DNA of 64,000 nucleotides. It comes from Salminus brasiliensis (taxonomy: Eukaryota > Chordata > Actinopteri > Characiformes > Bryconidae). Positions 6,422-42,853 of this stretch are shown piece by piece. Every line of letters starts with the position of its first letter. Within the stretch, counting starts at the first letter, position 1. A model generated the notes under the pieces. That model was given only the letters and a program-made list of their open reading frames with translations. It was not told where the DNA came from and did not search any database. Made by a program: the position numbers and the translations under genes. The stretch is from NCBI RefSeq assembly GCF_030463535.1, contig NC_132879.1:42722970-42786969 (forward strand). Direction: 5' to 3'.

Positions 6422-9269
6422 TTATGGTACAGTCTCATTCACAGAGAGAGGTGTGGTGTTTGGAGACTGGAGGGAAGGGGAAGGGGGGTACTTTCCTTCA
6501 GACACCAAAATAGTCTCGGGTTCACATTTCAGGCTAGCGTAGCACTGGCAGGTGAATGCCCTGGTAAACATCTGCAGGTCTGTGAGTGAAGGCATACCCA
6601 GGACTTCATATCGCCCAGCTGGGCCCCGCTGGATGCTGAAGCTGCCAGCACTCAGATGTAAGTAGTGGTCCATGTTATAGTTCTTCCTCACGCAGCGGCC
6701 CTTCCCCTGGCACAGGAAGTTACTGCAGAGCTTAGCAGCTGTGGTGACATTGATGATGTAAGGGTTGATGATGCTGTCAAGGTGGTAGGAGAAGGCTTCA
6801 CACGAGGCCTAGTGTGTGTATTAGTAAGAGAGAGACAAAAACTGAGAACTACTTAGTGACTCAAGTTTTGTATTATTGGAAAGTCATACAATTTAGTCAT
6901 GTTTAAGACATGCCAGTGACAGACTTTCTAAATATTCCAGTACCTTGTCGTCATAGTCAGCAGTGGCTCCCCAGAAAATGGCACCAGAAGCACCCACAGC
7001 TGCACTCTCCCCTATTGTGCTGACCAGGTCTCCCTGTAGACCAGCAGGACCGTAGGCCAAGTATGAGCAAATGTGACCTTTTCATTGTGAAATCAAACCC
7101 TAAAGCACTGGAACATTTTCAGTACTATACACACATGGACAAAATTGTTAGTACCCCTCAGTTAATAAAAGAAAAACCCACAATGGTTACAGAAATAACT
7201 GGAATCTCACAAATGTAATAAATAGAAATAAAATAAACTCATAAAATAGGCCTGGACAAAAAAAGATGGTACCCTTAACTTAATATTTTGTTGCACAACC
7301 TTTTAAGGCAATCACTGCAATCAAACGATTCCTGTAACTGTCAATGAGACTTCTGCATCTCTCAGCAGGTATTTTGGCCCACTCCTTATGAGCAAACTGC
7401 TCCAGTTGTCTCAGGTTTGAAAGGTGCCTTTTCCAGACAGCATGTTTCAGCTCCTTCCAAAGATGCTCATTAGGATTTAGGTCAGGGCTCATGGAAGGCC
7501 ACTTCAGAATAGTCCAGTGTTTTCCTCTTAGCCATTCTTGGGTGTTTTTAGCTGTGTGTTTTGGGTCATTACCCTGTTGCAAGACCCATGACCTGCGACT
7601 GAGACCAAGCTTTATGACACTGGGCAGCACATTTCTCTTCAGAATCCCTTGATAGTCTTATAGATCTGAAATTTCTGAATAATATGTGCAACTGTAGTCA
7701 CAGGAACATCAAGCTGCTTGGAGATGATCTTATAATCTTTACTTTTAACATGCTTGTCTATAATTTTCTTTCTAATCTCCTGAGACAACTCTTTCCTCCA
7801 CTTCCTCTGGCCCATGTTGAGTGTGGTACACACCATGTCAACAAACAGCACAGTGACTACCTGTAGCCCTATATATAGGCCCACTGACTGATTACAAGAT
7901 TGTAGACATTTGTGATGCTAATTAGTGAAAACACCTTGATTTAACATGTCCCTTTGGTCACATTATTTTTTTAGGGATTATCATTTTTGTCCAGGCCTGT
8001 TTAGTGAGTTTATTATTTTAGACTCCTCGAAAATCAACATTTTTGCTCTGTGCCAGCTCCCAGCACACCTGTAACAGGCATTTAGTTCTTGATTGCTTAG
8101 TTCAGGTGTCTTGAGAACTGAGATGGAACAAAACCTGGTCTTGGAGGTATGGTGCCCAGCACAGACTGTTGTTTTCCCTGGTCACACACAGCTGGTTCTT
8201 CTGTTAACTAGATGTGTTTGAGCAGAAAAAAACAGTGTTTTTGGCACCACACCCCCTGAACACATACCATGCTGGTATTCAATGCTTCAGAGCAAAAGAA
8301 TGTCAGATCATTTACATTCACTGCTTTGAGGAAAAAACAGACCTGGCTCAGCAGCCGTTTGTTCTGGTCTATGAATACAGGCCGGCTGTAGACATACACT
8401 GGAGCTGTGTGTGATTGATTGGGCAAGGCTGCCACTCGCATTGCCTCTTGCACACGGTTTCGAACCATGAGGGCAGCAGAGCGGTGGTCCCCAAGCAACG
8501 CCGGCAGGTAGATAGAGGGAAACAGCGCTGTGCTCGCCTCCCACAGCCACAGCAGCTTCTCATTCTGTCTCTGCACCTCTTCCGAGCAGTGACCTGTGTA
8601 GCCTGGCTGCTCCCAGCCATAGTTGTAGCAGTTGGGGAACAGGTAGAAGCCCCAAAGGTAGTTCGATCGCAACTCCGTGCCCAGAGTCAGAGTCTTGAGC
8701 ATGTATCTCTTAGCAGCAGACTGAAAGCGACGCTTGGCCAAAGAGACTACCAGCCCCATGGGCAGGGAGGGGTTTCTGTGGCGGGCATAACTGACTGACA
8801 GGGTACGGTAGATCCTCTTGGAACCCCAATTCCTCTCCCACAGGGGCCGCCAGTCCTCCCAGTCGATGATCGCCAGGCCAGAGGAGCTCTCAGAGGGAAT
8901 GTAGTGGAGGATGTCTGCCCTTGCTTTCTCCAGGCTGGCCTCAAGGTTGCCTCTCTGGGGGATGCCACCATAAAACTGTCTCCTGGAGTCCAGGTCCACG
9001 TAGGGGTACAAGCCCAGGCGGTTGGTGTAGAACAAGATGAGAAACTGATCAGGCACTTTGGCAGGATTACTCACGCCATGAAATGGAGAGGTGTCCAGAG
9101 AGATGTTGTGCCTCTTACAGACAAGGTCAGGTATGTTCCAGGTCACTACAAAGGGATGCCCATTAAAGAGAGGAGGAGCAGTGCTGGGCATGGATGGGGC
9201 AGAGTTGAGAGTGAAAATGCCAGTAAGTGACAGTGACAGGATGGGTAGCACGAAGACAGACAAGCCCAT
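6422..9269 (-). CDS. hyal4: Hyaluronidase, HYAL4/SPAM1 locus type (glycosyl hydrolase 56)
   Basis: Three coding exons on the minus strand: 8343-9269 (309 codons), 6944-7033 (30 codons) and 6422-6808 (128 codons plus TAA), giving 467 aa. Both introns are phase 0 with GT/AG borders. Family role: endo-hydrolysis of hyaluronan or chondroitin outside the cell. Visible features are an N-terminal hydrophobic signal peptide (about residues 1-24), the catalytic IDWEDWRP motif (D136, E138 as acid/base pair), the substrate-groove motif YLWGFYLFPNCYNYGW, the IGESAAVGASGAIFWG block in exon 2, and a C-terminal Cys-rich EGF-like module (LCQGKGRC ... FTCQCYASLKC). The protein ends soon after this module with no hydrophobic GPI tail, unlike mammalian PH-20, so I infer it is secreted. 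An acceptor 8 bases upstream of the ATG (cttcaacag/G) implies a separate 5' untranslated exon that I did not locate. The symbol rests on synteny next to wasl; spam1-type naming is possible. Intron 1 carries a Tc1 remnant. Confidence 0.92.
7127..8002 (-). mobile_element. Internally deleted Tc1-like transposon in hyaluronidase intron 1
   Basis: The ends are inverted (left 'tacacacatggacaaaa', right complement 'aaacaggcctggacaaaa') and flanked by TA. A further inner copy of the end motif lies near 7246, as in IR/DR-type Tc1 elements. The minus strand holds a transposase N-terminus (ATG near 7812; MGQRKWRKELSQEIRKKI, helix-turn-helix) and, in another frame (7280-7630), the C-terminal catalytic part with DNDPKHTAK and SPDLNPNEHLW. 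I count 34 residues between the second Asp and Glu (DD34E). The middle, including the first Asp region, is missing. At about 0.88 kb it is shorter than a usual 1.3-1.6 kb element, so it cannot move by itself. Confidence 0.85.
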
Positions 9270-12059
9270 TCTTTCTCCTGTTGAAGGGAAATTTGTCAGT
9301 TGTTATTATAGACATGAAAACTTGAATGACTGTGATTGTATAACAAATATGTCACTTTATATTTTTTTTTACAGACTTGCGAGTGTGAAATGACCAGTGA
9401 GGGCTTCACATTGACCAGCAGACAGGTTTTTAAAGGATTCTGGAAGCCATAATGTAATATCAAGATCAAATATAAACCCTTGGAGAACAATAACATCTAT
9501 CTATTGATCTATCTTATATCCTCAATCTGTCCAGCTAACTTTACTGACCACAAAGTGACAAGAATGAGTGACATTACCTGGACATCACATCACACCAATG
9601 TCTGCCTCTCCAGCTTTGGAATGGAAGATTCTCTTGAGCAGAGTACAAAATAAGTGAAAGGACCCCAGCAAAAACAAGCCTCTTCCTCCAGGCAACAGAA
9701 AAATAGAGTGTAGAGTATGCACTGGTCTAACCTGAAGGCTGCTTGCGTGCTGGGGCGTCGGTGATGGTTGACTGGGACCATACCAGTCAGAAGTGTGCAG
9801 CTCCTTGCACATCTTTGCTATTTGTTTTTTATATTTGCTAACACACCTCAGACTGGCACTAGCGAAGCATGTTTCCACCTTTGCATGACTTGTTATTGGT
9901 TGCTCCTCTCCCACAGTGCAGACACTGACACACAGGTGCGAGCAGCCGTACTGTAGTTGGCAACACATACATGGAGTACATGGAGCTGTAACACACAACT
10001 CTGCTTCGACATGGAGAAAATCCTGAGCCATGGCAGAAGACAAAAAAACTAAGTCTCAAAAATAAGAACTCAGATGAGACCACGGTAATTCAAAGGCCAA
10101 AATTTAAGAGTTTCTTTTATTTTTGTTTGTAATATTTTTAAAAAGATGCATATTTTAGGATTCGGTATAATTGTAGCTGTAATAATTGCACAGTAAACAA
10201 ACATGGTTGTACATATACTGGTAAAATCTGACTATACTTGTAGTTCATGTCAAAACAAAATGAACAACAGAACTGTCTGAATGTCTGTTTATTGGTCATG
10301 TTGAAATAAGAAATGAGAATCGTGCATGTGCGTGTATGGTATGCATTTATTTATATACGTATATTTAATTAAAAGTAACTGGTTACACTGTAGAAGTCAC
10401 AGAATATACTAAAATATCTAAAAACAACAACAACAAAAGGAACATTAGTGAACATTAGTGGTGTTGCTCATTCATTTGGCCAAAATCAAAGGAGTAAGAA
10501 CAAAGCATGTACTTCCACTCTGTACAACCAGAGGGCACCATTGACTTGGCATGCATGTTCAGGTAAATTTCTTAACCATCCAAAAATAAGTTGTTTTTTT
10601 TTATCTCATAAATAGATCACTTGGAACACATTCAACAGGCCTACATTGTTAGCAGGCTTTGCAGTTTACTGCAGATGTGTACAGTGTTGATAGATTAATA
10701 TGTGCACTGCAGTCAATGTGTTTGTACATAAAGGTAAGCTGTTGTGAGTGGAGTCTACACACACAATATTTCAGTGAAATATCAGTGCTATATGCTTAAC
10801 CACTTTCCTGTTAGAAGGAGAGAAAAATGTGTTTATTACAATTAGTGGGGGGGGGGTCTCACAAATATTAATAAATAAATTAAGTCACACTGAAGTATTT
10901 ATTTATGCTAAGCTGTTTAAGGCTGTGGCCAATCAGCTGTGGTGGGAAGCAGTTTGACCAATGATTGATGTAGCTGCAGGTACATGTAGACCAATAGTGG
11001 CAGTGAGAAGGCAGTGCTTAAACAGGGGTGTTTAAAATTTAAAAAATCCACGCGTCGAATGTGTGGATTCGCTGAAGTGAAATCAGTGTGAAATCCCAGC
11101 TGGACGCATGTTTTACATAAAAAAAGAGAACATATCCCTAAACTTATCTCTTCGAATCTTTTCTCTTCCAGCTGGAATTTTTCCAGATGCACAGAATTTC
11201 ATAGAAAGTTCTCCGGTCTTTCTGCTGGGTTTATAGCATTAGTTTGGTGACACTGCTAACACAGATGGCAGTGCTAATGACAATGATTTTACTTGATATA
11301 ATGATTTACACAAAATGAAACTGAACAAAATGAACAAAATCTGCTTTGTTTCTCATCCAGCTTTGAATAAAACTTCTGAATACCTGAATACCTACCTTGT
11401 TTTGCCCTCCGTCACATCACTGCATATAAGATAATGGAGGACCGCCTTCCATTCAAATTCAAGGCCTAAAGAGAATTCTCTGAATCACAGAAATGTAGCG
11501 CAGCAGGTTCTGGGAACCCCCTTCCCCTCTCACAGATTGCACTACTAAGTGCTCAGACACTGCTGATTCAGCTTAAGGCTTGATAATTAGCTGCTGAGTT
11601 GGATCAGATGCGTTAGTGAGGGGAACAGTTAAAACTGTGAAAGCCAGCAGATTCCTGGGACTGGAGTTCAGAACCACTGATGTATTTGAGGTGGCTATGT
11701 GTGCAGAGTAAATGCTGACCTAAAGGTCCCCTTAGTAGTGGCAAGTCAAGAAAGTGGGGATAAGCAGTTCTACACTAAAGATTCAGAGGATGTGGGATTG
11801 CTGCTTTTGGCTATAAGGTGGCATAGGGTGTATATGTGGCATTTATTGTTTATTTTCAACCACTAGGAGCTGATGCCGTAGTTTCTCCCACACTGGGAGA
11901 GAACTATGGGCTCTGTACTGTAATGTCTGTGGCAGTGCTGAACTACTCTGTTTTATATTACTCATACAAACACATTGAACCTACTGACCCCATGTGTGGT
12001 GCACTTAAATTCTGGAGAGAGTGTATGTGGCATGGTTCTTTCTTCTCAAGCAAGCTTAT

Positions 12060-18010: not shown

Positions 18011-19830
18011 ATGAGCGGGCAGCCGCCGCAGAAGCGGCCCACAAATGTCGGCTCCATACTGCTCACAAATCAGGAGAATGACGTGCTTTACGGTCACCTG
18101 GGCAAGAAATGCACTGTAAGTTTACCCACCTTTACTAACCACCTAGCACTGCACCTAGCACTGCACCTAGCACTGTTCAACTTGTTCCTATGGCGCCGTG
18201 CTGAGGACACAGGCGCTTGTTTTTGTGAAAGCTCGTAAACCACCAGTCGTTTTGCTTTTTGTTGTTTTGACATTTTGCAACGTTAGCCGGCTAACTAGAT
18301 TAGCTGTTAGCGGACCTAGCTCGTCTTTGGTCCCGTTTGTCTTACAAAAGTAAGATTTGTGTGAAAGTGTCTGGTCTGCCTCAGGGTTTGTGAGAGACTG
18401 TAGCTAGACTAGCTAGCTAATACTGCTGATAGAGACCCGGCCGCTAACTCGTTAGTGCTAGCTAGCTACCGTCAAAGTTAGCTAGCTTTCAAGACCTCCC
18501 TCGTCGGGAACGCCAGGCTTGTTTTTTTTTTCCGTGAGCCTCGGCCATCAACTCGTATGTTCAGCTGCATCCCAGAGGACAGACTTCGTTATTTGCGCGT
18601 CGTTGAGTCGTTTGGCCGTGGCTGGAAGTCGATAACGACTCCCAAACCAAACCGACAACGCCTCATCTTGCTGAAAGTGTGAGTTCAGTCCTGGCTACTT
18701 TAGCCAGCGCTGCCTCGTAATCCTCTGGCTCGCACAGCTTCAAAGCCAGTGGGTTATAAAAACAGACAGGTAGTCGTCCATGATCGAGATAGCTAGCTAG
18801 CTACAGTTTACAAGGAAATTAGAGGACTGTACAGAGTGTCAGGTGGTGGTAGTAAATATCCAGCTAGCTAACAGGCTGTCACGGTACCACAGAGCACACT
18901 AAGCCAGTCAGACCAGTCACCCCAGCTTCTGACAGGGGACGCTTCGCCACTCTCTCCGCCTCGCTGCCACATGGTTAAAGGTGTTGAAGGCGGTGGTGTC
19001 GCTGCTAACACCGTAAGCATCTAGCTTGAAAAACGGGCTTGGAGTATTGATTAACGATCAGCAGCTATACAAAATAAAAATAATAATTAAAGAAATAAAG
19101 AGAGTCGAGATCTAAACAGAGTCATTCTGGAGAAACTTCCCGAGTCATTTACTGCTGCATTGCAGAAAGCTGCTCGTGTGTACGTTTCTAATAATGCGCG
19201 GCCCGAGGCATCGTTTTAGGACGGATTGCGATATGAGGAGTTAATGATAGAGAGGCACCAATGCGCAAATGCTAATAAACAGAAAAACATATTGGCACCT
19301 GGTTCCTAATGCCAGGTGTGAGCTGTGGAACTGTGTTCTCTGAAATGAAGGCGCTCCTATTGGTTTTGGATGAGGTGGGGTGGTGATCACCCAACATCCT
19401 GACCTCACTAATGCTTCTGTTGCTCAGTGCAATCAAACCCTCACAGCAATGCCCCAAAATTCACTAGAAAACCTTCTGTGGATAGTAGAGACAGTTGCTC
19501 CAACAAAAGCAGGGTGGTTATGTATTTATTTATTTTAATCCTTGATTTCAGGAACACAAAAAAACAACGAATGAGCAGATGTCCCAATACTTTAGTCCGT
19601 ATAGTGTACATTCGGGGTGTTTTCAGTTGAACAAATATTTGCTCATTGTCGATTAGTCTGCATGGCCAGTTTCTCTATAATGTAGCAATTCCCCTCAGAC
19701 TATTGATTAAATGACGTCTTAAGCACTCGATTTATGCAGAAAATGTTATATCTGTGGATTCAGTGCTTTAAATGGGAGCTGTTTCTGGTGCTGGCCTGGA
19801 GTTAAAAATGTTAACCCAGGGCTAATATGA

Positions 19831-19910
<80 letters not shown>

Positions 19911-29582: not shown

Positions 29583-32500
29583 TGTAAATGCCTTATTAGT
29601 ATGCATACCAAATGCGACCTTAGAGCAAGCATATTCTTGCAAAAACAGATGGACTGTCTGATTGATATGTTAATGTTTTTTTAGGGTTGTAGTAGCTTGT
29701 AGAACCTAATTGCAAAATATGGTTCACAACAGGAGTGACCGTTTGCACCTGTTTACCTATAATGAATCTTAAATGTGCTGTAAGTGTTTTTGGCACTGAT
29801 TTACAAGGTTACTTTGATTCTGACTGATTGCCAGTCATCTCACACATCATTGACATAGGCCAAATATGGAATTATGGCTGGAACTGTACCTTGTTGCCAA
29901 GACTTATGACCTGTCCTTCATATTCAGTTCACTGTGTGCATGTAAACATGGCTAATCTCACTCTCTATTCTGATGCTTGCTTAAAAAGTGATCTTCCTTT
30001 GTATGTGTGCATCTCTAACACTCTCTAATGGAGCCTTCTACTTCTTCAAAGTTCTTGGGACTTGCTGGGGACCTACCAGCAGAGCCTGCTTCTGATTAAC
30101 TCTACTTTTGAAGCGTATTGTGCTTTAACCACTTCCTCAATGTTGGTGTGTGTCTCTCTCTATGCACTTCTCCTGATTCAGCCTGCTACGCTGAAAACGG
30201 CCAATCCATCCCCACACAGTCTCCTTACTTGTGATTTGCTCAATAACCTTGTGCACTGCCTGCACACTAATTAGAACATCTTGCTTTTACAGTTTATCGC
30301 AGTGTTCAAACTGACCGCCTCACTTCCTCTCCTGCTAATTAACAGCAACAGAACACCTGTTTCAGTCATGCCAAAATAATAACAGCACATTTTAATTTTT
30401 TTTTTTTTTTCAGAAAAAAGACGTGATCCACCAAATGGTAGGTTCCATTTTACTTGATGAATTGTCAAAAAAAAAACTGGTGGAGTGATGCATAGATTTC
30501 ATTTACAAACTCCTCCCCCAGCTGTTTTTTTCTTTAAAGTGCTGCAGTGCTAGTTAATCCTCTCATTGGAAGCAATCTTGCCACCATATGTAACCTATTT
30601 GATGTAGCCTTCCAGTAGTTCTGCTGTCAGTTATGGCATAAAGTCCCCCCTGTAGCTGGTATGTTCAGGCTAGTAGTCTGCTTCCTTTTGGTCTTTGTCT
30701 TCTAAAAGAGTTTCGTTTGTCAGCCTTTGATCCTAGTAGACCTACTCGAATGCAGTAAAGCAGTGCTCCACAGTGGTTGCACGCTGTAAAATAGGGGTTG
30801 ATGGCCATGTTCCTGAACTGGCGCCTAGTTGAAACATGTGATGTGTCGAGCACAAACACACACACAATTCCCCCCCCCCCCCCCCCCCATTTCCTGACAT
30901 AACCTCCTGCTGTCACACCCTTGTCCGTGTCGGATGTGGTCTGGAAGAGCCTTCGTGGCTCTCTGGCCATAAATATTAGGCTCCCGGGTTAATCACTGTA
31001 AGAGGATTTTCTCTCTCTCAGCTGTTAATGTAAATTCCTCCCCTCCATCTACTGTGTTGAGCCTCTGCTTTAATTGAAGGGTGGACAGGGAGAGTGAGAA
31101 CTGGACCACTGCCAGTTGCAGAGGGTATTTTGGGCAGTGTCATAGTTTATTGACCACATTTCTGTGGGGAGTGTTTGGAGTGCTTGACATAATTGTTATT
31201 AAAATAAAGAAAGTCAAGGACTCTTTACAAAAGTCTATGTAAAACCGCATTAAAGACTGCTCATATGGTTGTTCATAGAACCTTTTAAACTACGGTTCTA
31301 TATAGCACCAAACAGAACGTAAGGGGAGGTGATTTGCATGTTTTTGACATCCAGGTTCTGGTGCAGCAAAACATCCCTAAAGTTCTTACTTTAAAAAGAA
31401 AGTTGCTGTAGAAAAAGTTTCTTACTCTGAAAAGCAATTTTAGGTTTTCGGGAGACTTAACAAGTCCCATGTCGGCCAAAACGTTCATAAGCCAAAAGTT
31501 TTTTTTTCTTGTATTTAATCTGGTAGTTTTTCTTTACATTGTTTCACAGTTCCATAATGGGTGGACCAATAGAAATGCTCCAAAATTACTTTTTTTTATA
31601 AAATCTTTTCACATTGACTTAAGGCTTTTTGACCTTTTCCCTTTTGGAGATATAAGATTTTTTCTGCGACTGCAACAATATGGACGTGGGATGTCCCTGA
31701 GTACATTCAACATACATGCGTTATGTGAGTGAGCATTTCCACCTCTAGGTTATGCAGCATTGCCTTCTTTGTCAGAACCCTTGACACTTTTCATTGCATT
31801 GAATGTGGGCCTATAAGGGGAATTGGCTGAAGGCCTCTCTCACATTTTTGTGTATGTGTGAAAATGGCTCTGCTTCTAGACATACATCATTTGCCTACAA
31901 CTGAACAGTGGGCCACCATGGTTGGAGGCAAGCTTTGTTCTGCATCAACTGGAACTGCTTGTTTTTGATGAGTGAAGGAGCATGCTGGCTTCCTCATTCT
32001 CCTCTGTAATATAAATAACACTGATAATAACACTGTTTTTGCTTTGGAGGTGGACGGTCACAAATATCTGAGTAGAAGCACAGATAACTCCATGTAATAA
32101 CTTCTCTACTGTAATAACTGCTCTCTAGTGTGTTGTTGCATCAATATTAAATAAATTTATTTCAAGTCTGAAGCACTCAAAAATAAGTGATTGGAAGGAA
32201 TTGATATGTTAGTTAGAAGAACACAGGTTTGTTCACACTCCAGACACTGAATTTGTTTAGTTCCACCAGCAGCTCGCCAGATTTACTTGTTGGAGGCAGG
32301 GTTACATGTCCAGTGAGCAGTTCTGAGCTGAGCGAAGTCTATTTCGACTGTTTTTCTGGCACATTTAGTAGACTACTTCATCCAGGTTTGCTTGCTCGCC
32401 CCATTTAATTGAACTAAGCATGTCTCTGAATTTCCAACTATGGTGGGCTTGGTTTGTCTTCAGTGTGTGACTTTACCAGTTTACTACATACCGTCATACC

Positions 32501-34766
32501 GTCAACATTTTTAAATTGTTAAAATGCTTCCCAACAATGCTACCTTACCAGTCTAAAAGGAAACAGGAGATGCACAGAATATAAAATTACCAAAATCATG
32601 AATCGTTATGTTGGATAAAGCTCTGGTAGAGATTTTTGTAGAGTCTGTCTATAAAACTGTAAATAATCAAGGAATGATTTTTGGCGTCCAGAACTTTCTT
32701 CTGTCTAGACGAAGATGGTATCCTTTCCACAGCCTCTCATTATGTTTAAAAGAAACTGAGATTTGCTGTGGATTACATCTGGCTGAACAGTTACGTAAAG
32801 CCAAAGGGCCTCGCGTAATTTGCTGGGATTAAGGGAGCCAGAACCTCACAGCTGGGCGTTGGCTTCCAGCTGCTGGAGGGGGCGGAACCGAAGTGCTCTG
32901 ACCTAAAGCGGCACTTCCTGTGAGATTGCCTTTACTGCGAACTCTGCTGTGGTCCACAGAGAGTGCATGCGCCACCGCCACGGCCACCTGCAGAGGCAGC
33001 AGGCAACAAAATCTGGCAGAGCCCTGTGCTCCACATAGCGCCATCGAAATGATGTTCTGCACCACCTTCCTGTCTGCTCCCTCTGAAGAGCTGCTGGATG
33101 GAGGGTCAGAGTTGGGCAGTTGCCTCACGCTTTTGCACTGCCTGGTGCTCCCACAGGACGAGCTTTGTGCTTCGCTTTCGGAGCCTGCTGCCCGCCTCTC
33201 CCTGAGCCCCAGCGAGCACTCCTGCGGGGTCATGGGTAAAGTTCTGCTGAATGCCAGCTTGGGGGCCGTGGATGTCGGAGGGCCGGGAATGGGTGGTAGC
33301 GAGTTTAAAATGCTGCCTGGCTCTCTAGAGCAGGAGGATGAAGGTAGGTCGCTCAGGCATGGACTTGTTTCACATGTTTAAATGTGGTTTATGTGAGGAT
33401 TTTGTTCTTCAGTGGCACCAAGCGAGTGGACGTTCTGCTGTAGGAGGTGGCCCTTTATAAAAATAGATTCAATAGTTCATAGGGTTAACGTTCTGTTTTT
33501 GCTTACAGGACCCACTTTACCAATGGCAACGGTGGACATCAAGAACCCAGAGATCAACAGTTTTCGCTATAACAACAACTCGCAGGTCAACAGCAACCTG
33601 CACAGCAACTTCAGAAAAGACAAGGGCAAGGCCAAGGGCAAGAAGAAGAAAATATCCAAAGCTGAAATTGGGACACCTAGCAATTTCCGGTGGGTCCCGT
33701 TGTTCTGTTTAGTGTGCATTTGGCAGAAATGCTGTAGCTGAATAATGTTGTCATATCGGACAGCTCACTCTACAAGACCTCTGAAGACCTTGTGGTATCT
33801 AGTACAAAGATGATGGTAGCAGACCCTTTATTCTTGTTGTCTTATTGTAGCAGGCGAATTTCTTTTATTGTTCCAAGGTCCACTTCCGGGGACTGTTTGT
33901 CCATTGATTTGATTTGACTTGACTTGACTTGAAGCCCAGACTTGAAGTCTTGCAGGTTATGGAGATGCTCTTACCCAGTGACCATGGCCATAATGATTTT
34001 TTTTGTGTCAAAGGACAGTTGTTATGAAGTAATCAAAGTTTTTCCACTTTGTCTTTATAATGTTTAGGCTTATCTGTGTTAGTGCATTAAAGGCCTCTAA
34101 TTCGTAGTGACCGATGTTTACAGCACATTAATTCCTGGACGAAACGTACTGTACGAGATTCCTCCTAATCCAAAGTAATATGTCCCTCAAATGAGTGCCC
34201 ACCCTCTGTAATCTGGAACCTGTGCTTCAGGAATCGGGTTAAAAAACTATATGAGGCTGCTGCACCACAGTGTATATTGCTTGATGAAGACTAGATTTGA
34301 CCCTAATCTTAAACTCAGCCTGATCATCTATGGGTTTTTTTTGTTTATTTGTTTGTTTGTTTTTTTCCTTCCCCTTTTTAGGCATATTGGGCATGTAGGC
34401 TGGGATCCCAACACAGGATTTGATGTGAGTAATTTTGCAACAATGTCTGCTCTGATGCCTTCAATGCATAGCAGCAGTCTAAAAGGCGAAAACGTTACAT
34501 GCCATGTGCAAGGCCACTGATGCCTGGATCCCTCATATGCAGGCACATTTGTTTACTGGAAAATGATTCAGAAGAGCTTTTGTGTGGAAGTCATCTTCCT
34601 ATATTACACAATGAGATTTGGAGAAGGACAAAAAATGACCGCGATCATCATAATCCAAACAGTCATACTCAAATGAAAAAAAAAGGATAAAGTAGTTCAT
34701 TGAGTTTTTTTTGTTGTTTTTTTTGTTTGTTTGTTTTTTTTTACGTCAGATATGCAGGGATGATTT

Positions 34767-37700: not shown

Positions 37701-40700
37701 TTATTTGAGTAAACTTTGATGCTTCAGAACTTTAAATGTCAAACGGCAATACCAGAAACAACTCAAATGATGATGGCTAGGCCTGCAACAACTAATTGAA
37801 GACCATCTATAATAAAAAAAAATTGTTTTTGATGTCATTTGTGACAGGACCAAACAAAGAAAAATCAGAATGTGCAATGCAGGGCTCTGTAGAAGCCAAA
37901 AGTGAAAAACAGCTCTGTTATACTTCCATAGTTTTTTTCCCTTTTGAATGAAAAGGCTAAATACAGTTTCCATTCTGTGGCCTCTTTAAGAATTTGAATA
38001 GCAGAAATAATTCTAATAATAATACAAATAACCAAATATAGGGAGTACATACAGTGTGTGCATAATTATTAGGCAAGTTGTATTTGAGAGGATTCTGTTT
38101 ATTATTAAACAATAACTATGTTCTCAATCAACCCAAAAGACTATTTTTGGAAGTTGGAGTTGTTGTTTTTTTAGATTTGGCCATCTTAGGAGGATATCTG
38201 TTTGTGCAGGTAACTATTACTGTGCAGAATTATTAGGCAACTTAATAAAAAACAAATATATTCCCATCTCACTTGTTTATTTTCACCAGGTAAACCAATA
38301 TAACACAACATTTAGAAATAAACATTTCTATCATTCAAAAACAAAACCAAAAATAAATCAGTGACCAATATAGCCACCTTTCTTTACGATGACACTCAAA
38401 AGCCTTCCATCCATAGATTCTGTCAGTTGCTTGATCTGTTTACGATCAACATTGCGTGCAGCAGACACCACAGCCTCCCAGACACTGTTCAGAGAGGTGT
38501 ACTGTTTTCCCTCCCTGTAGATCTCACATTTTATGAGGGACCACAGGTTCTCTATGGGGTTCAGATCAGGTGAACAAGGGGGCCATGTCATCATTTTTTC
38601 TTCTTTTAGACCCTTACTGGCCAGCCATGCTGTGGAGTATTTGGATGCATGTGATGGAGCATTGTCCTGCATGAAAATCATGTTTTCTTGAACGATACCG
38701 ACTTCTTTCTGTACCACTGCTTGAAGAAGGTGTCTTCCAAAAACTGGTAGTAGGTCTGGGAGTTGAGCTTCACTCCATCCTCAACCCGAAAAGGTCCCAC
38801 AAGTTCATCTTTGATGATACCAGCCCATACCAGTACCCCACCTCCACCTTGCTGGCGTCGGAGTGGAGCTCTCTGCCCTTTACTGATCCAGCCTCGGGCC
38901 CATCCATCTGGCCCATCAAGAGTCACTCGCACTTCATCAGCCCATAAAACCTTAGAAAAATCAGTCGTAAGATATTTCTTGGCCCATAAAACTTGACGTT
39001 TTATCTTATGTTTCTTGTTCAAAGGTGGTCGTTTTTCAGCCTTCCTTACCTTGGCCATGTCCTTGAGTATCGCACACCTTGTGCTTTTTGATACTCCAGT
39101 AACGTTGCAGCTCTGAAATATGGCAAAACTGGTGGCAAATGGCATCTTGGCAGCTTCACGATTGATTTTCCTCAATTCATGGGCAGTTATTTTGTTATTG
39201 TTCAACACGTTTCTTGCGACCCTGTTGGCTATTTGCCATGAAACGCTTGATTGTTCGGTGATCACGCTTCAAAGTTTGGCAATTTCAAGACTGCTGCATC
39301 CCTCTGCAAGACAACTCACAATTTTTGACTTTTCAGCGTCCGTCAAATCTCTCTTCTGACCCATTTTGCCAAAGGAAAGGAAGTTGCCTAATAATTAAGC
39401 ACACCTTATATTGGGTGGTGATGTCATTAGACCACACCCCTTCTCATTACAGAGATGCACATCACCTGATTTACTTGATTGGTAGTTGGCTTTCAAGCCT
39501 ATAGAGCTTGGAGTAGGACAACATGTATAAAAAGGATGTGATCAAAATACTCATTTGCCTAATAATTCTGCACACCGTGTAGTGTCTACTTGAGCTGCAT
39601 AGTAACTGTATAGTAGCTGTTTGGATTGTTTTGATATACAGGTGTTGGTCATAAAATTTGAATGTCATGAAAAAGTTGATTTATTTCAGTAATTCCATTC
39701 AAAAAGTGAAACTTGTATATTATATTCATTCATTACGCACAGACTGGTATATTTAAAGTGTTTATTTATTTTAATTTGATGGTTATAACTGACAACTAAT
39801 GAAAACCTCAAATTCAGTATCTCAGAAAATTAGAATATTACTTAAGACCAATACAAAAAAAGGATTTTTAGAAGTGTTGGCCAAGTGAAAAGTATGATCA
39901 TGTACAGCACTCAATACTTAGTTGGGACTTCTTTAACCTGGATTACTGCAGCAATGTGGCGTGGCATGGAGTCGATCAGTCTGTGGCACTGCTTAGGTGT
40001 TATGAGAGCCCAGGTTGCTCTGATGGTGGCCCTCAGCTCTTCTGTATTGTTGGGTATGGCGTATCGCATCATCCTCTTCACAATACCCCATAGATTTTCT
40101 ATGGGGTTAAGGTCGGGCGAGTTTGCTGACCAATTAAGAACAGGGATATCATGGTCCTTAAACCAGGGACTGGTAGCTTTGGCACTGTGTGCATGGAAAA
40201 TGCAGCAGGAAGCATGAAGTGCTCTAAAACTTCCTGGTAGACAGCTGTGTTGACCTTGGACCTCAGAAAACACAGTGAACCAACACCAGCAGATGACATG
40301 GCACCCCAAACCATCACTGACTGTGGAAACTTTGGACCTCAAGCAACGTGGATTCTGTGCATTTCCTCTCTTCCTCCAGACTCTGGGACCTTGATTTCCA
40401 AATGAAATGCAAAATTTACTTTCATCAAAAAACATAACTTTGGACCACTCAGCAGCAGCCCAGTCCTTTTTGTCTTTAGACACAGAGCTCTATGAACAGC
40501 CAGCCTCTATAGCAATGACCTTTTGTGTCTTCCTCTCATTGTGCAAAGTGTCAATGGTTGCCTTTTGGACAACTGTCAAGTCAGCAGTCTTCCCCATGAT
40601 TGTGTAGCTGGACTGGAGAGACTGGAAAGATTGTGTGAATGGACTGAGAGAGAAAAAGGCCTTTGCAAGTGTTTTGAGTTAATTAGCTGATTAGAGTGTG

Positions 40701-42128
40701 GCACCAGGTGTCTTCAATATTGAACCTTTTTACAATATTCAAAGTTTCTGAGAAACTGAATTTGAGGTTTTCATTAGTTGTCAGTTATAACCATAAAATT
40801 AAAAGAAATAAACTCTTGAAATATATCAGTCTGTGTGTAATGAAAGAATATAATAGTTCCACTTTTAGAATGGAATTACTGAAATAAATCAATAATCTTT
40901 CTCATGATAATTTTATGACCAGCACTTGTATGATAGAAAAGTGTCTTACTGCTCCTTCTTGAGTGGTTTGCTAGGGGCTTTCAATTAAAAAATATGCCCT
41001 CGCAGATGACTTTTGTTTTATTTATTTATTTTTAATAATAATTGTGTTACTGACTCGTTGGTATTTTATAGGTGGGAGATGGACCTGACCCATCCCCACC
41101 AACTTCAGCACCCTCAGCTGGAATAGTTGGAGCTTTGATGGAGGTCATGCAAAAGAGGAGCAAAGCAATCCACTCTTCAGGTGTGTAACATTTTCTGTGT
41201 GTTAAAGGGGGGATCCCCATATGTGTGTTCCACTCTGTACAGAGAGGTGGAACCAACACATTATACATACTCTCCGTTCTTAAGGATATTTTTCCCTTTT
41301 TAGAGTTAAACAGTAGAAAATAGACTTGATTTAATTTAAGTTCATTTCTAAAAAAAAAAAAAAAGAAAGAAAGAATCAGTTTGACTGTTTAGCTTGGATT
41401 GGATAGAGAGATTAAAAAAAAAATGTATTGCTGTTATTGAATGAATAACTCATAAGGGTTTGTAAACAGAAAGTAATTTTTTTAATGTTTACATTTTTTG
41501 TATTACCACCCCAACATAACAAAAGTCTTAAACTGGTTAAAGCAGAATGTACCGTTTTTGTACGTAGGCTGCATGTAGGCCTAATATAATAACACTGGCT
41601 TGAAAAGCTAGAAGATCTCTGAGTTTATTTGTATGAATATAGATAGCTTTGTCAAATAGTAAATGACTCCGGCATTGTGGTATGAAATGATAAGTGTTTA
41701 GATCTAAATAAATACAATATCACTTTTCGATAAAGAACATTTCCCTATTTAGAAATGCATAGATTGCTCTGACTCAGTCGTCTGGCTGATGTGGTTAAAG
41801 TTACTCGAAGCTTCACATCTGCCCAGCTCTCCAACATCCAGGACGTTACATATGTGAACCGCCTTTTCAGTTACCATATTCATATGTATCCCAGACATTG
41901 ACGTGTGCCGATAATCATCACCATTCCATTCGTTTCATCTTAGCTCATTAACCACATCGTTGAGGCCATGCGCCAGAACTTTGATGATATATGGAGTATA
42001 TAATGTTTCACGTTGGGCCAACCATTCAAAATCCATATCTAATGTCATCTTCTGTTCTATTTACAGATGAAGATGAGGATGATGATGATGTTGAGGACTT
42101 TGAGGAAGATGATGAGTGGGATGACTAA
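18011..42128 (+). CDS. wasl: Neural Wiskott-Aldrich syndrome protein (N-WASP)
   Basis: Eleven coding exons: 18011-18115, 27238-27372, 28403-28489, 29365-29461, 30414-30437, 33509-33689, 34382-34424, 35969-36122, 36879-37408, 41072-41180 and 42067-42128. All have GT/AG borders and consistent phase, giving 508 aa (human about 505). Role: autoinhibited activator of the Arp2/3 complex, released by Cdc42 and PIP2, that drives branched actin. Domains in order: WH1/EVH1 (about 14-141), basic patch (KRQRKTEKRR, then a [10 protein letters not shown] run), CRIB/GBD from [17 protein letters not shown] (about 198-275) with the Src-type tyrosine at 256 (KVIYDF), proline-rich region (276-400), two WH2 motifs (408-426 [13 protein letters not shown]; 437-452 [12 protein letters not shown]), central helix (470-488 [18 protein letters not shown]) and an acidic tail (DDEWDD). 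The start is the only ATG giving the family N-terminus. Whether it is the a or b fish copy cannot be told. Confidence 0.96.
19280..19610. repeat. Dispersed DNA-transposon-derived repeat
   Basis: Shares 'cctaatgccaggtgtg' and 'gttctctg.aatga.ggcgctc' with copies at 35585-35790 and 59490-59790. It ends in 'gtcccaatacttta' followed by 'tatagtgta', an end typical of fish Tc1-derived non-autonomous elements. Confidence 0.5.
19830..19927. repeat. Compound microsatellite (TG)n(AT)n(AC)n
   Basis: A short TG run is followed by roughly 35 AT units and then an AC run in wasl intron 1. It is palindromic in character and likely to be highly variable in length. Confidence 0.95.
21890..22060. repeat. MITE-like 'gaacca' repeat copy
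   Basis: Contains 'catagaagaaccacttt', 'agttcttcacactc' and 'aaagaacatcttt', similar to the repeat at 4195-4445. A divergent copy with approximate boundaries. Confidence 0.35.
23935..24906. mobile_element. hAT-like non-autonomous element (about 0.97 kb)
   Basis: The two ends are inverted copies of 'tagggctgcaac' (left at 23935, right complement at 24895-24906). Each is followed inward by related AT-rich palindromic sequence around 'aataatcgatta'. Such terminal repeats fit hAT-type transposons. I could not match an 8-bp target duplication by eye, and the interior shows no transposase. It lies in wasl intron 1. Confidence 0.6.
27172..27234. repeat. (TG)n microsatellite abutting the wasl exon 2 acceptor
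   Basis: About 30 TG units run to within four bases of exon 2: the tract is followed directly by 'atag' and then the first codon at 27238. The normal place of the polypyrimidine tract is therefore filled by alternating UG in the RNA. Confidence 0.95.
27812..28122 (+). mobile_element. tRNA-derived SINE
   Basis: A tRNA-like head carries a polymerase III A box (TGGCTCAGCGG, 27821-27831) and B box (GGTTCGATTCC, 27865-27875). The body ('gccactgttgggccctt', 'gagcaaggccctttacc') is of a type very common in fish SINEs. The 3' end is a short tandem 'cctttatcctttacc'-like tail. It lies in wasl intron 2, same strand as the gene. The anticodon loop is degraded, so this is not a functional tRNA gene. Confidence 0.85.
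29522..29582. repeat. (TG)n(GA)n microsatellite in wasl intron 4
   Basis: About 24 TG units followed by GA units, starting 60 bases downstream of the exon 4 donor at 29462. Confidence 0.95.
30414..30437 (+). CDS. wasl: wasl microexon 5 (24 nt)
   Basis: Bordered by a strong T-rich tract plus cag on the left and GTAGGT on the right. It supplies the codons reading EKRRDPPN plus one base, matching the conserved EKRRDPPNG segment of N-WASP between WH1 and the GBD. The length is divisible by three and entry/exit phases are equal, so skipping it would keep the frame and remove part of the basic PIP2-binding patch. Confidence 0.9.
31220..31340. repeat. MITE-like repeat fragment
   Basis: Text such as 'catagaaccttttaaac' and 'acggttctatatagcacc' resembles the repeats at 4195-4445 and 21890-22060. 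Low-confidence, diverged copy. Confidence 0.3.
32960..33343 (+). other. Candidate unannotated wasl exon (cassette or alternative first exon)
   Basis: A GC-rich block inside intron 5 that is open without stops on the plus strand from about 32902 past its donor. The acceptor candidate is 'gctgtggtccacag' ending at 32959, with a branch-like 'ctctgac' near 32895. A second possible acceptor ends at 33088. The donor is strong: GAAG/GTAGGT after 33343. From 32960 the length is 384 nt (128 codons). Entry after the one-base overhang of microexon 5 and exit into exon 6 both fit phase 1, so inclusion keeps the N-WASP frame (…[13 protein letters not shown]…). Alternatively the ATG at 33049 could start an isoform lacking WH1. 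No known domain is seen. The antisense frame 32829-33233 is also open, so GC bias may explain part of the openness. Confidence 0.4.
35085..35364. repeat. Dispersed DNA-transposon-derived repeat, 3' half
   Basis: Contains 'gggatgagttggagtggc', 'aatcacccaacatcagtg' and 'gtgtccacaaacttatgg' followed by 'acatgctgtag'. These blocks recur in a very common fish non-autonomous element whose other half is seen at 35585-35790, 57890-58090 and 59490-59790. Confidence 0.5.
35585..35790. repeat. Dispersed DNA-transposon-derived repeat, 5' half
   Basis: Carries 'aggactctctggagcagata' (35601-35620), present almost unchanged near 58016 and 59574, then 'cctaatgccaggtgtggg'. The phrase 'aaaataaactttggtcaga' flanks it on both sides (about 35515 and 35789), which may be the host target or a larger repeat. 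Confidence 0.55.
36700..36770. repeat. Terminal fragment of the dispersed repeat
   Basis: 'tccaaatgtttggacatc' followed by 'cttctaatga' matches the outer end seen near 57905-57935. This is a short end fragment in wasl intron 8. Confidence 0.35.
38050..39581 (-). mobile_element. Tc1/mariner transposon, DD37E type (TRT-like), broken transposase
   Basis: A near-complete 1.53-kb element in wasl intron 9. It is flanked by TA, with inverted ends of about 27 bases ('gcataattattaggcaa' left; complement of right 'gcagaattattaggcaa') and inner copies of the same motif near 38225 and 39386, giving an IR/DR layout. The transposase on the minus strand starts at 39364 ([16 protein letters not shown]) and shows [14 protein letters not shown] and [12 protein letters not shown] count 37 residues between the second Asp and the Glu, which fits the DD37E group (TRT elements known from ray-finned fish). 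At least three frame breaks (near 39270, near 39180 and near 38700) inactivate it. Clear ends and few lesions suggest a fairly young copy. Confidence 0.88.
39637..40930 (-). mobile_element. Tc1-like transposon with about 200-bp inverted repeats
   Basis: 1.29-kb element starting 55 bases after the previous one. The ends are TA plus 'caggtgttggtcataaaa' on the left and the complement 'caagtgctggtcataaaa' on the right. The inverted similarity continues for roughly 200 bases ('tgatttatttcagtaatt', 'ttataactgacaactaat'). The minus strand encodes a degraded transposase (39911-40483) with [23 protein letters not shown] and [12 protein letters not shown]. The region of the second catalytic Asp is disrupted and out of frame, so it is inactive. 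It sits in the same orientation as its neighbour. Confidence 0.88.
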
Positions 42129-42853
42129 TGACACTACAGCACCCCCACCACCACCCCCAGACCAATTAAGACACTAAAATAGTTCCCATCTCTTAATCTT
42201 AATGAATAATAATGTAAATGGTCAGCTGATTGCTGTATGTTTTGTTGCCTTTAAGCTTTTTTTTTATTATTAATCTGTGCAATACCTCATTTCATCTGGT
42301 TTGTCATGTTTTTTTGTGTTTTTGAATTAGCGTGCAATTTTACATCAAGTCTTCTCGATTTGTAGAGTTGAATGTTGACATTTTTTTTCCATCATTCATA
42401 GAAGGGAGGTTCAAGGAACAAAACTACGAACATTGGTAATGTTGATACTTGTTATTGAAAGTGAGAACACTATTTTCATACCTTACTCTTCTGTACCATA
42501 CATTTTCTAATTCAGATCCTAGTTTAGCACCATTATTTTCTTAAAGGAATCTGCTTTTTGGAATATTTAGCCCCATGGCTGATTTGTAAATCTACTCAGA
42601 GTTTAAGTCTGTTATATTTTTGCACGAACTGAAAGAGATAAAAAAAAATGCATCTGCTAGATGAACACTAGAGCAATATCATGGTGATATCTCCAAAAAA
42701 AACAAAATAAAACAAAAAACTACAACTGAGAACTTGCTCTAACATGCTTTAGGACTCACTACAACATAAGATACTGGCAAAACTACGGCTATTGCCCTGG
42801 TTGTGTTTCCGACTTCTTTTTATCAGCCAGAGATCCAGATCATTTTTGCGTAT

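Follow-up and report, generated by a model that had tools for sequence, protein, structure and literature searches.

Does intron 5 of a fish N-WASP (WASL) gene hold a further coding exon, and if so, is that exon spliced in between its known neighbors or does it begin a second form of the protein? WIP binding through the WH1 domain is a main control on N-WASP. WH1 (EVH1) binds WIP, which is described as regulating WASP and N-WASP and as protecting WASP from degradation (PMC7407642). Here, we describe a GC-rich block in intron 5 of an N-WASP gene that lies in a 64,000-nucleotide stretch of Salminus brasiliensis DNA (the window; contig NC_132879.1, positions 42,722,970 to 42,786,969; coordinates without a prefix are window positions, and C2 is the contig that carries the window). 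A sequence-only reading of the window had proposed an extra N-WASP exon here, either as an in-frame cassette of 384 or 255 nt between exons 5 and 6, or as an intronic start with an ATG at 33049 that would give an N-WASP without WH1. From a comparison of two N-WASP copies, both from one assembly, the block is probably a real coding exon, and it quite likely serves as an alternative first exon that carries its own start codon, which would give a WH1-less form of N-WASP.

Results

The window N-WASP coding region spans 18011 to 42128 on the plus strand and, in the gene model completed here, consists of 11 exons encoding 508 residues. The full-length protein has the WH1, GBD and two WH2 stretches expected of N-WASP / WASL (Pfam WH1, E 1.2e-30; PBD, 1.3e-18; WH2, 4.5e-14 with two stretches), and its first 275 residues match 10 PDB sequences, the best of which is Neural Wiskott-Aldrich syndrome protein (E 9.8e-133). 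Exon 5 (30414..30437, plus strand) is a 24-nt microexon, phase 1 on both sides and conserved in the second N-WASP copy described below, and exon 6 (33509..33689, plus strand), which an alternative first exon would join, encodes the basic region and the start of the GBD. What the sequence-only reading had placed between them is present at those positions: a plus-strand frame open from 32902 to 33381, a CTGAC at 32898-32902, an acceptor AG at 32958-32959, the ATG at 33049, and the donor GAAG/GTAGGT after 33343. Both proposed cassette lengths are multiples of three, and the end of exon 5 (30437) and the start of exon 6 (33509) meet in phase 1 in the gene model. The block was rightly described as GC-rich, with a GC content of 0.58-0.61 in three 300-base segments from 32800 to 33399 and 0.35-0.48 in the flanking segments.

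Openness alone is weak evidence for coding, because 2.7% of 2000 order-1 simulations of 32800-33400 produced a plus-strand frame of 159 codons or longer (12.45% over six frames), and a still longer frame, of 182 aa, is open on the minus strand (32829-33377). That minus-strand frame was rejected as a coding candidate: it has no Pfam match, and the best antisense frame in the permutation test described below was not significant.

A search of the 1.07-Gb assembly with the 99-residue peptide read from ATG 33049 gave three matches: the block itself, C2:24516787-24517005 (47% identity over residues 1-72, E 1.1e-9, stop-free), and low-complexity sequence (E 6.09). In the reverse direction, the 94-residue peptide of the second copy returned itself, the window copy (E 2.6e-10) and one further match (E 5.24) that was taken as chance, leaving the two N-WASP copies as the only credible genomic places by protein search in both directions. 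A repeat or transposon origin was considered and is not supported, with two genomic places found by protein and one by DNA; the DNA search missed the second copy too, so it excludes only close repeats.

The second match lies within a second N-WASP gene on the same contig, in the same orientation and 18.2 Mb away (near 24.51 Mb versus 42.75 Mb). Window exon 6 matches C2:24519410-24519592 on the same strand (67% identity, E 1.8e-21), and this second-copy exon 6 sits 2.3 kb of intron below the second-copy exon donor; exon 6 also matches a third gene, on contig C6, more weakly (E 0.0016). When the window and C2:24,490,001-24,540,000 were compared frame by frame, colinear N-WASP exons were found on both sides of the block in the second copy, and 11 exons were modelled in each gene. 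Beyond N-WASP, the second locus matches the leiomodin and ankyrin-repeat genes of the window. The window leiomodin-2 gene was named by a PDB match and is matched at the second locus by tblastn (50% over 336 columns, E 3.5e-69, in a stretch without a Pfam family), and an ankyrin-repeat gene (Pfam), which we take to be ASB15, lies downstream of N-WASP at both loci. From the colinear exons and common neighbors, the second locus is therefore a duplicate of the N-WASP block, and the two genes form a wasl duplicate pair. Synonymous differences between the copies are high (pS 0.49-0.92 in seven exons), and the split is therefore old. Both wasl-leiomodin-ankyrin blocks are on one contig, and a chromosome fusion would be needed if they derive from the teleost genome duplication.

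Some further features of these loci were recorded. Exon 11 and the N-WASP 3' UTR (window 42064-42530) are 67% identical between the copies over 515 aligned columns (E 7e-24), and the conservation of the 3' UTR suggests that regulatory sites have been kept there. Minus-strand transposase fragments, presumably of the Tc1/mariner type, occur in the window at 7280-7657, 38376-39100 and 39909-40447 and match one transposase-like stretch near C2:24.534 Mb; the fragment at 7280-7657 is apparently in an intron of the gene at 6422-9302, which from its translation we assume to be hyaluronidase-like. Opposite-strand and transposase matches in the comparison of the window with C2 were not relied on. No RNA family reached its gathering score in the window, and a search of viral contigs gave 7 pattern matches, none of them a relative.

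Plus-strand blastn between the two genes (E 0.05) gave 13 matches, corresponding to exons 1-10, exon 11 with the 3' UTR, the candidate block, and a 23-nt match (19828-19850 / 24507411-24507433, E 0.036) that was not relied on. Apart from the known exons, the 3' UTR and this 23-nt match, the block is the only colinear same-strand stretch conserved in gene-wide comparisons. It aligns over 33049-33090 in the gene-wide search (88%, E 3.9e-8) and over 33049-33170 in a search restricted to intron 5 with looser scoring (122 columns, 69%, E 4.4e-14), and in both searches the homology begins exactly at ATG 33049 and ATG 24516787. From the 32960 acceptor to the ATG, blastn found no homology to the second copy. 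Farther upstream, the intron-limited search gave weak colinear matches at 32840-32866 (E 0.93) and at 32181-32268 (plus strand; 65% identity to C2:24515347-24515438, E 0.002), the latter absent from the gene-wide search; this stretch is possibly a distal promoter element or other regulatory sequence.

Downstream of the ATG, the peptides of the two copies are identical over their first 14 residues from the first Met, share 15 of the next 33, and then diverge. The proposed first coding exon (33049..33343, plus strand) is 295 nt long, that is, 98 codons plus one base, and its homologous block in the second copy is 283 nt long; both lengths are 3n+1 and differ by 12 nt. In both copies the frame is open to the donor, which is in phase 1 with exon 6, and it stays open past the donor as well.

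Residue conservation is found in a 47-codon core (33049..33189, plus strand), where 29 of 47 residues are identical between the copies, pN is 0.251 versus a pS of 0.681, and changes by codon position number 17, 9 and 24. With the same substitutions placed at random sites, a mean of 18.7 identical residues was expected, and 29 was reached in 0 of 20,000 permutations. Because the end of this stretch was chosen from the protein alignment, the test was repeated with a stretch set by the DNA alignment, namely its first 40 codons, giving 26 identical residues versus 18.3 expected; this was reached in 4 of 20,000 permutations, which is the more cautious figure, although the permutation ignores clustering of substitutions. 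The same test gave 2940 and 3890 of 5000 permutations for the other sense frames and 4207, 394 and 4420 of 5000 for the antisense frames, so that substitutions spare residues in one frame only and the other five are not significant. Across seven other N-WASP exons measured with exact boundaries, pN runs from 0.0 to 0.261 (the highest being WH1 exon 3), so the core lies inside this spread, at the loose end of N-WASP exons. The comparison indicates that selection has preserved the encoded residues of the first 40-47 codons.

This constraint does not extend over the whole exon. The second half (33190..33342, plus strand) is open in both copies with no detectable residue conservation: pN is 0.60 versus a pS of 0.70 in the last 46 aligned codons, and the 5 identical residues in the last 40 codons were equalled by 1026 of 5000 permutations. 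The second half was open by chance in 14% of simulations for the window copy and 12% for the second copy.

Splice sites were ranked within intron 5 using score tables that are not fitted to this species. On this scale the donor GTAGGT (33344..33349, plus strand, phase 1), following GAAG, ranks first among 196 GT sites between 30445 and 33480, and the second-copy donor at the matching place ranks first among 390. Acceptors behave differently, being weak or at non-matching places in the two copies. Of the 196 AG sites scored in the window copy, rank 35 falls to the acceptor preceding 32960, a weak site, and rank 4 to that preceding 33089; the nearest AG above the ATG, before 33039, ranks 76, and no AG stands directly before the window ATG. 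In the second copy the ATG is immediately preceded by an AG (rank 23 of 365), and an upstream leader exon is therefore possible there. A conserved start codon and donor without a conserved acceptor is the pattern of an alternative first exon.

Both ATGs have a purine at -3, which fits a translation start. Within 250 bases there is one upstream ATG above ATG 33049 (at 32967, opening a 23-codon frame that ends at 33038) and six above that of the second copy, where an in-frame stop also lies 14 codons above the ATG. The presumed promoter and 5' leader (32860..33048, plus strand) are placed by position in GC-rich sequence. There is no CpG island upstream (CpG observed/expected 0.55 in the window at 32800-33048 and 0.58 in the second copy), and blastn against the second copy found no significantly conserved proximal promoter.

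Discussion

The start codon is probably real, because the same start has been kept in the old duplicate of the gene. A first exon is favored over a cassette because the edge of homology is at the ATG, the two copies lack acceptors at corresponding positions, and an in-frame stop lies upstream of the second-copy ATG. Points that count against a first exon are the unconserved second half, the upstream ATGs of both copies, the missing CpG island and conserved proximal promoter, and the AG adjoining the second-copy ATG. The intronic start proposed by the sequence-only reading is the best fit among its suggestions. Its more general claim of an extra N-WASP exon is well supported, since the block is conserved, shows codon constraint and keeps its frame, phase and donor, while the 384-nt form is not supported.

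An internal cassette, starting at 32960 (384 nt) or at 33089 (255 nt), would lengthen the stretch separating WH1 from the GBD by as many as 128 residues. Its lengths and both junction phases fit, the acceptor before 33089 is among the best of the intron, and use of the AG before 24516761 would give the second copy an in-frame exon of 309 nt; however, the acceptor of this second-copy form is weaker still (score -5.68, rank 184 of 365), and the weak acceptor of the 384-nt version, the lack of homology between that acceptor and the ATG, and the second-copy stop speak against that version. The 255-nt version keeps frame, as had been claimed, but its acceptor lies inside the conserved core, and the 13 best-conserved codons would then have no explanation. 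Overall, we regard a cassette as unlikely. A poison exon, which on inclusion after exon 5 would shift the frame and lower N-WASP output, is less probable again. In its favor, splicing to the AG that adjoins the second-copy ATG (acceptor rank 23 of 365) would produce an exon of 283 nt that runs into an early stop after phase-1 exon 5. Such an exon would not read the MMFC frame, on which the constraint acts, and in the window the closest acceptor available is the poorly ranked one before 33039. We consider this very improbable.

The ATG frame could also run unspliced to the stop at 33379-33381 and encode a separate small protein of 110 residues, in keeping with the frame being open past the donor in both copies, but the short tails beyond the donor are unlike by eye, no other donor in either intron scores as high, and no Pfam or PDB relative was found up to E 10; this is improbable. 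About equally improbable is that the block is regulatory DNA under conservation, or the decaying relic of an exon, and is open by accident. The unconserved second half, the ease with which long frames arise by chance in a GC-rich stretch, and the possibility that about 120 bp of conserved intronic DNA is an enhancer all speak for this. Against it stand the avoidance of amino-acid changes in one frame only, the coincidence of the homology edge with the ATG, and the retention of donor and phase in both copies.

Under the preferred reading, that of an alternative first exon, a transcript would start in intron 5, with ATG 33049 in its first exon or reached from a non-coding leader exon. Splicing of 33343 to 33509 (24517069 to 24519411 in the second copy) would join the new exon to exon 6, for a predicted N-WASP of 457 residues in the window and 454 in the second copy, in which some 98 unique residues would stand in place of exons 1-5 and their WH1 domain. 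Pfam finds PBD and WH2 and no WH1 in the predicted short forms of both copies. The short form would keep the basic region, the Cdc42-binding GBD, the proline-rich region and the WH2/VCA output, the basic and proline-rich regions having been read by eye from the translation. By its predicted sequence it would be an isoform of the N-WASP / WASL gene and not the canonical N-WASP protein. The new N-terminal peptide has no Pfam match and matched no PDB sequence at E values up to 10, and its AlphaFold2 single-sequence model is uninformative (mean pLDDT 51).

Such a protein could still be autoinhibited by contact between GBD and VCA and opened by Cdc42, PIP2 and SH3 adaptors. It could not be bound, held inactive, stabilized or delivered by WIP through WH1, an uncoupling predicted because the WH1 domain is missing, and we infer that it would act as a WIP-independent, Cdc42/PIP2/SH3-driven activator of Arp2/3. 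Its unique N-terminus may place it elsewhere in the cell. We lean modestly toward the view that the N-WASP genes of fish give rise to a regulated isoform, undescribed so far, that lacks WH1 and whose own N-terminus has been kept in both copies since their old duplication.

If this is true, a natural and selectively kept WH1-less isoform would suggest that cells also need N-WASP free of WIP, and the same gene would offer a second way for Cdc42 and PIP2 to drive Arp2/3 activation, independent of WIP. Removal of a single exon would then offer a genetic handle separating WIP-dependent from WIP-independent functions. Phenotypes of wasla and waslb could also be reread, since mutations in exons 1-5 would spare the short form; additional fin bones have been reported in zebrafish with a waslb gain of function (Hawkins et al. 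2021, cited in PMC9073674).

Among the matches listed in a search of open-licence literature, mostly titles and the starts of abstracts, no WH1-less N-WASP isoform was recognised, and gene-annotation databases may already contain a predicted isoform that includes the exon. In the same genome, a further WASP-family gene with WH1-, GBD- and VCA-like exons lies at C6:15261522-15268314 and is presumably was. Its equivalent intron (C6:15263342-15264814) gave no plus-strand match to the exon among the matches listed, up to E 10. Human WAS shows that a WASP-family gene can have an alternative upstream promoter, which there yields the same protein.

The closest relative of the proposed form is full-length N-WASP itself, which comes from the same gene and has exons 6-11 (basic region, GBD, proline-rich region and WH2/VCA) in common with it, and differs in having exons 1-5 with WH1 in place of the approximately 98 residues without a Pfam or PDB relative. 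A mutant consisting mainly of WH1 is reported to promote nuclear actin polymerization, with WIP required (PMC11720165), and WH1-less N-WASP constructs are described as restoring Shigella actin tails with lower efficiency or as shorter tails (PMC5217673, citing Lommel et al.); with WIP-dependent activity in WH1 alone and weaker Shigella tails, a WH1-less form may therefore lack part of N-WASP function. WH1-truncated WASL is reported to be functional, with EMCV infection 3-fold over wild type, and given this rise the authors expect higher actin activity from it (PMC6904212). These engineered proteins resemble the proposed isoform in lacking WH1, keeping the GBD to VCA and functioning in cells, and are unlike it in being artificial deletions without a new N-terminus (PMC6904212, PMC5217673). 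A natural counterpart in gene structure is Tks5beta / Tks5short of Sh3pxd2a, in which an intronic start drops the N-terminal PX domain and adds a unique short stretch (PMC4178035). Tks5, which associates directly or indirectly with N-WASP, is encoded by an unrelated gene, and its short form is backed by cDNA clones and immunoblots, whereas the N-WASP form is predicted from sequence (PMC4178035 for Tks5).
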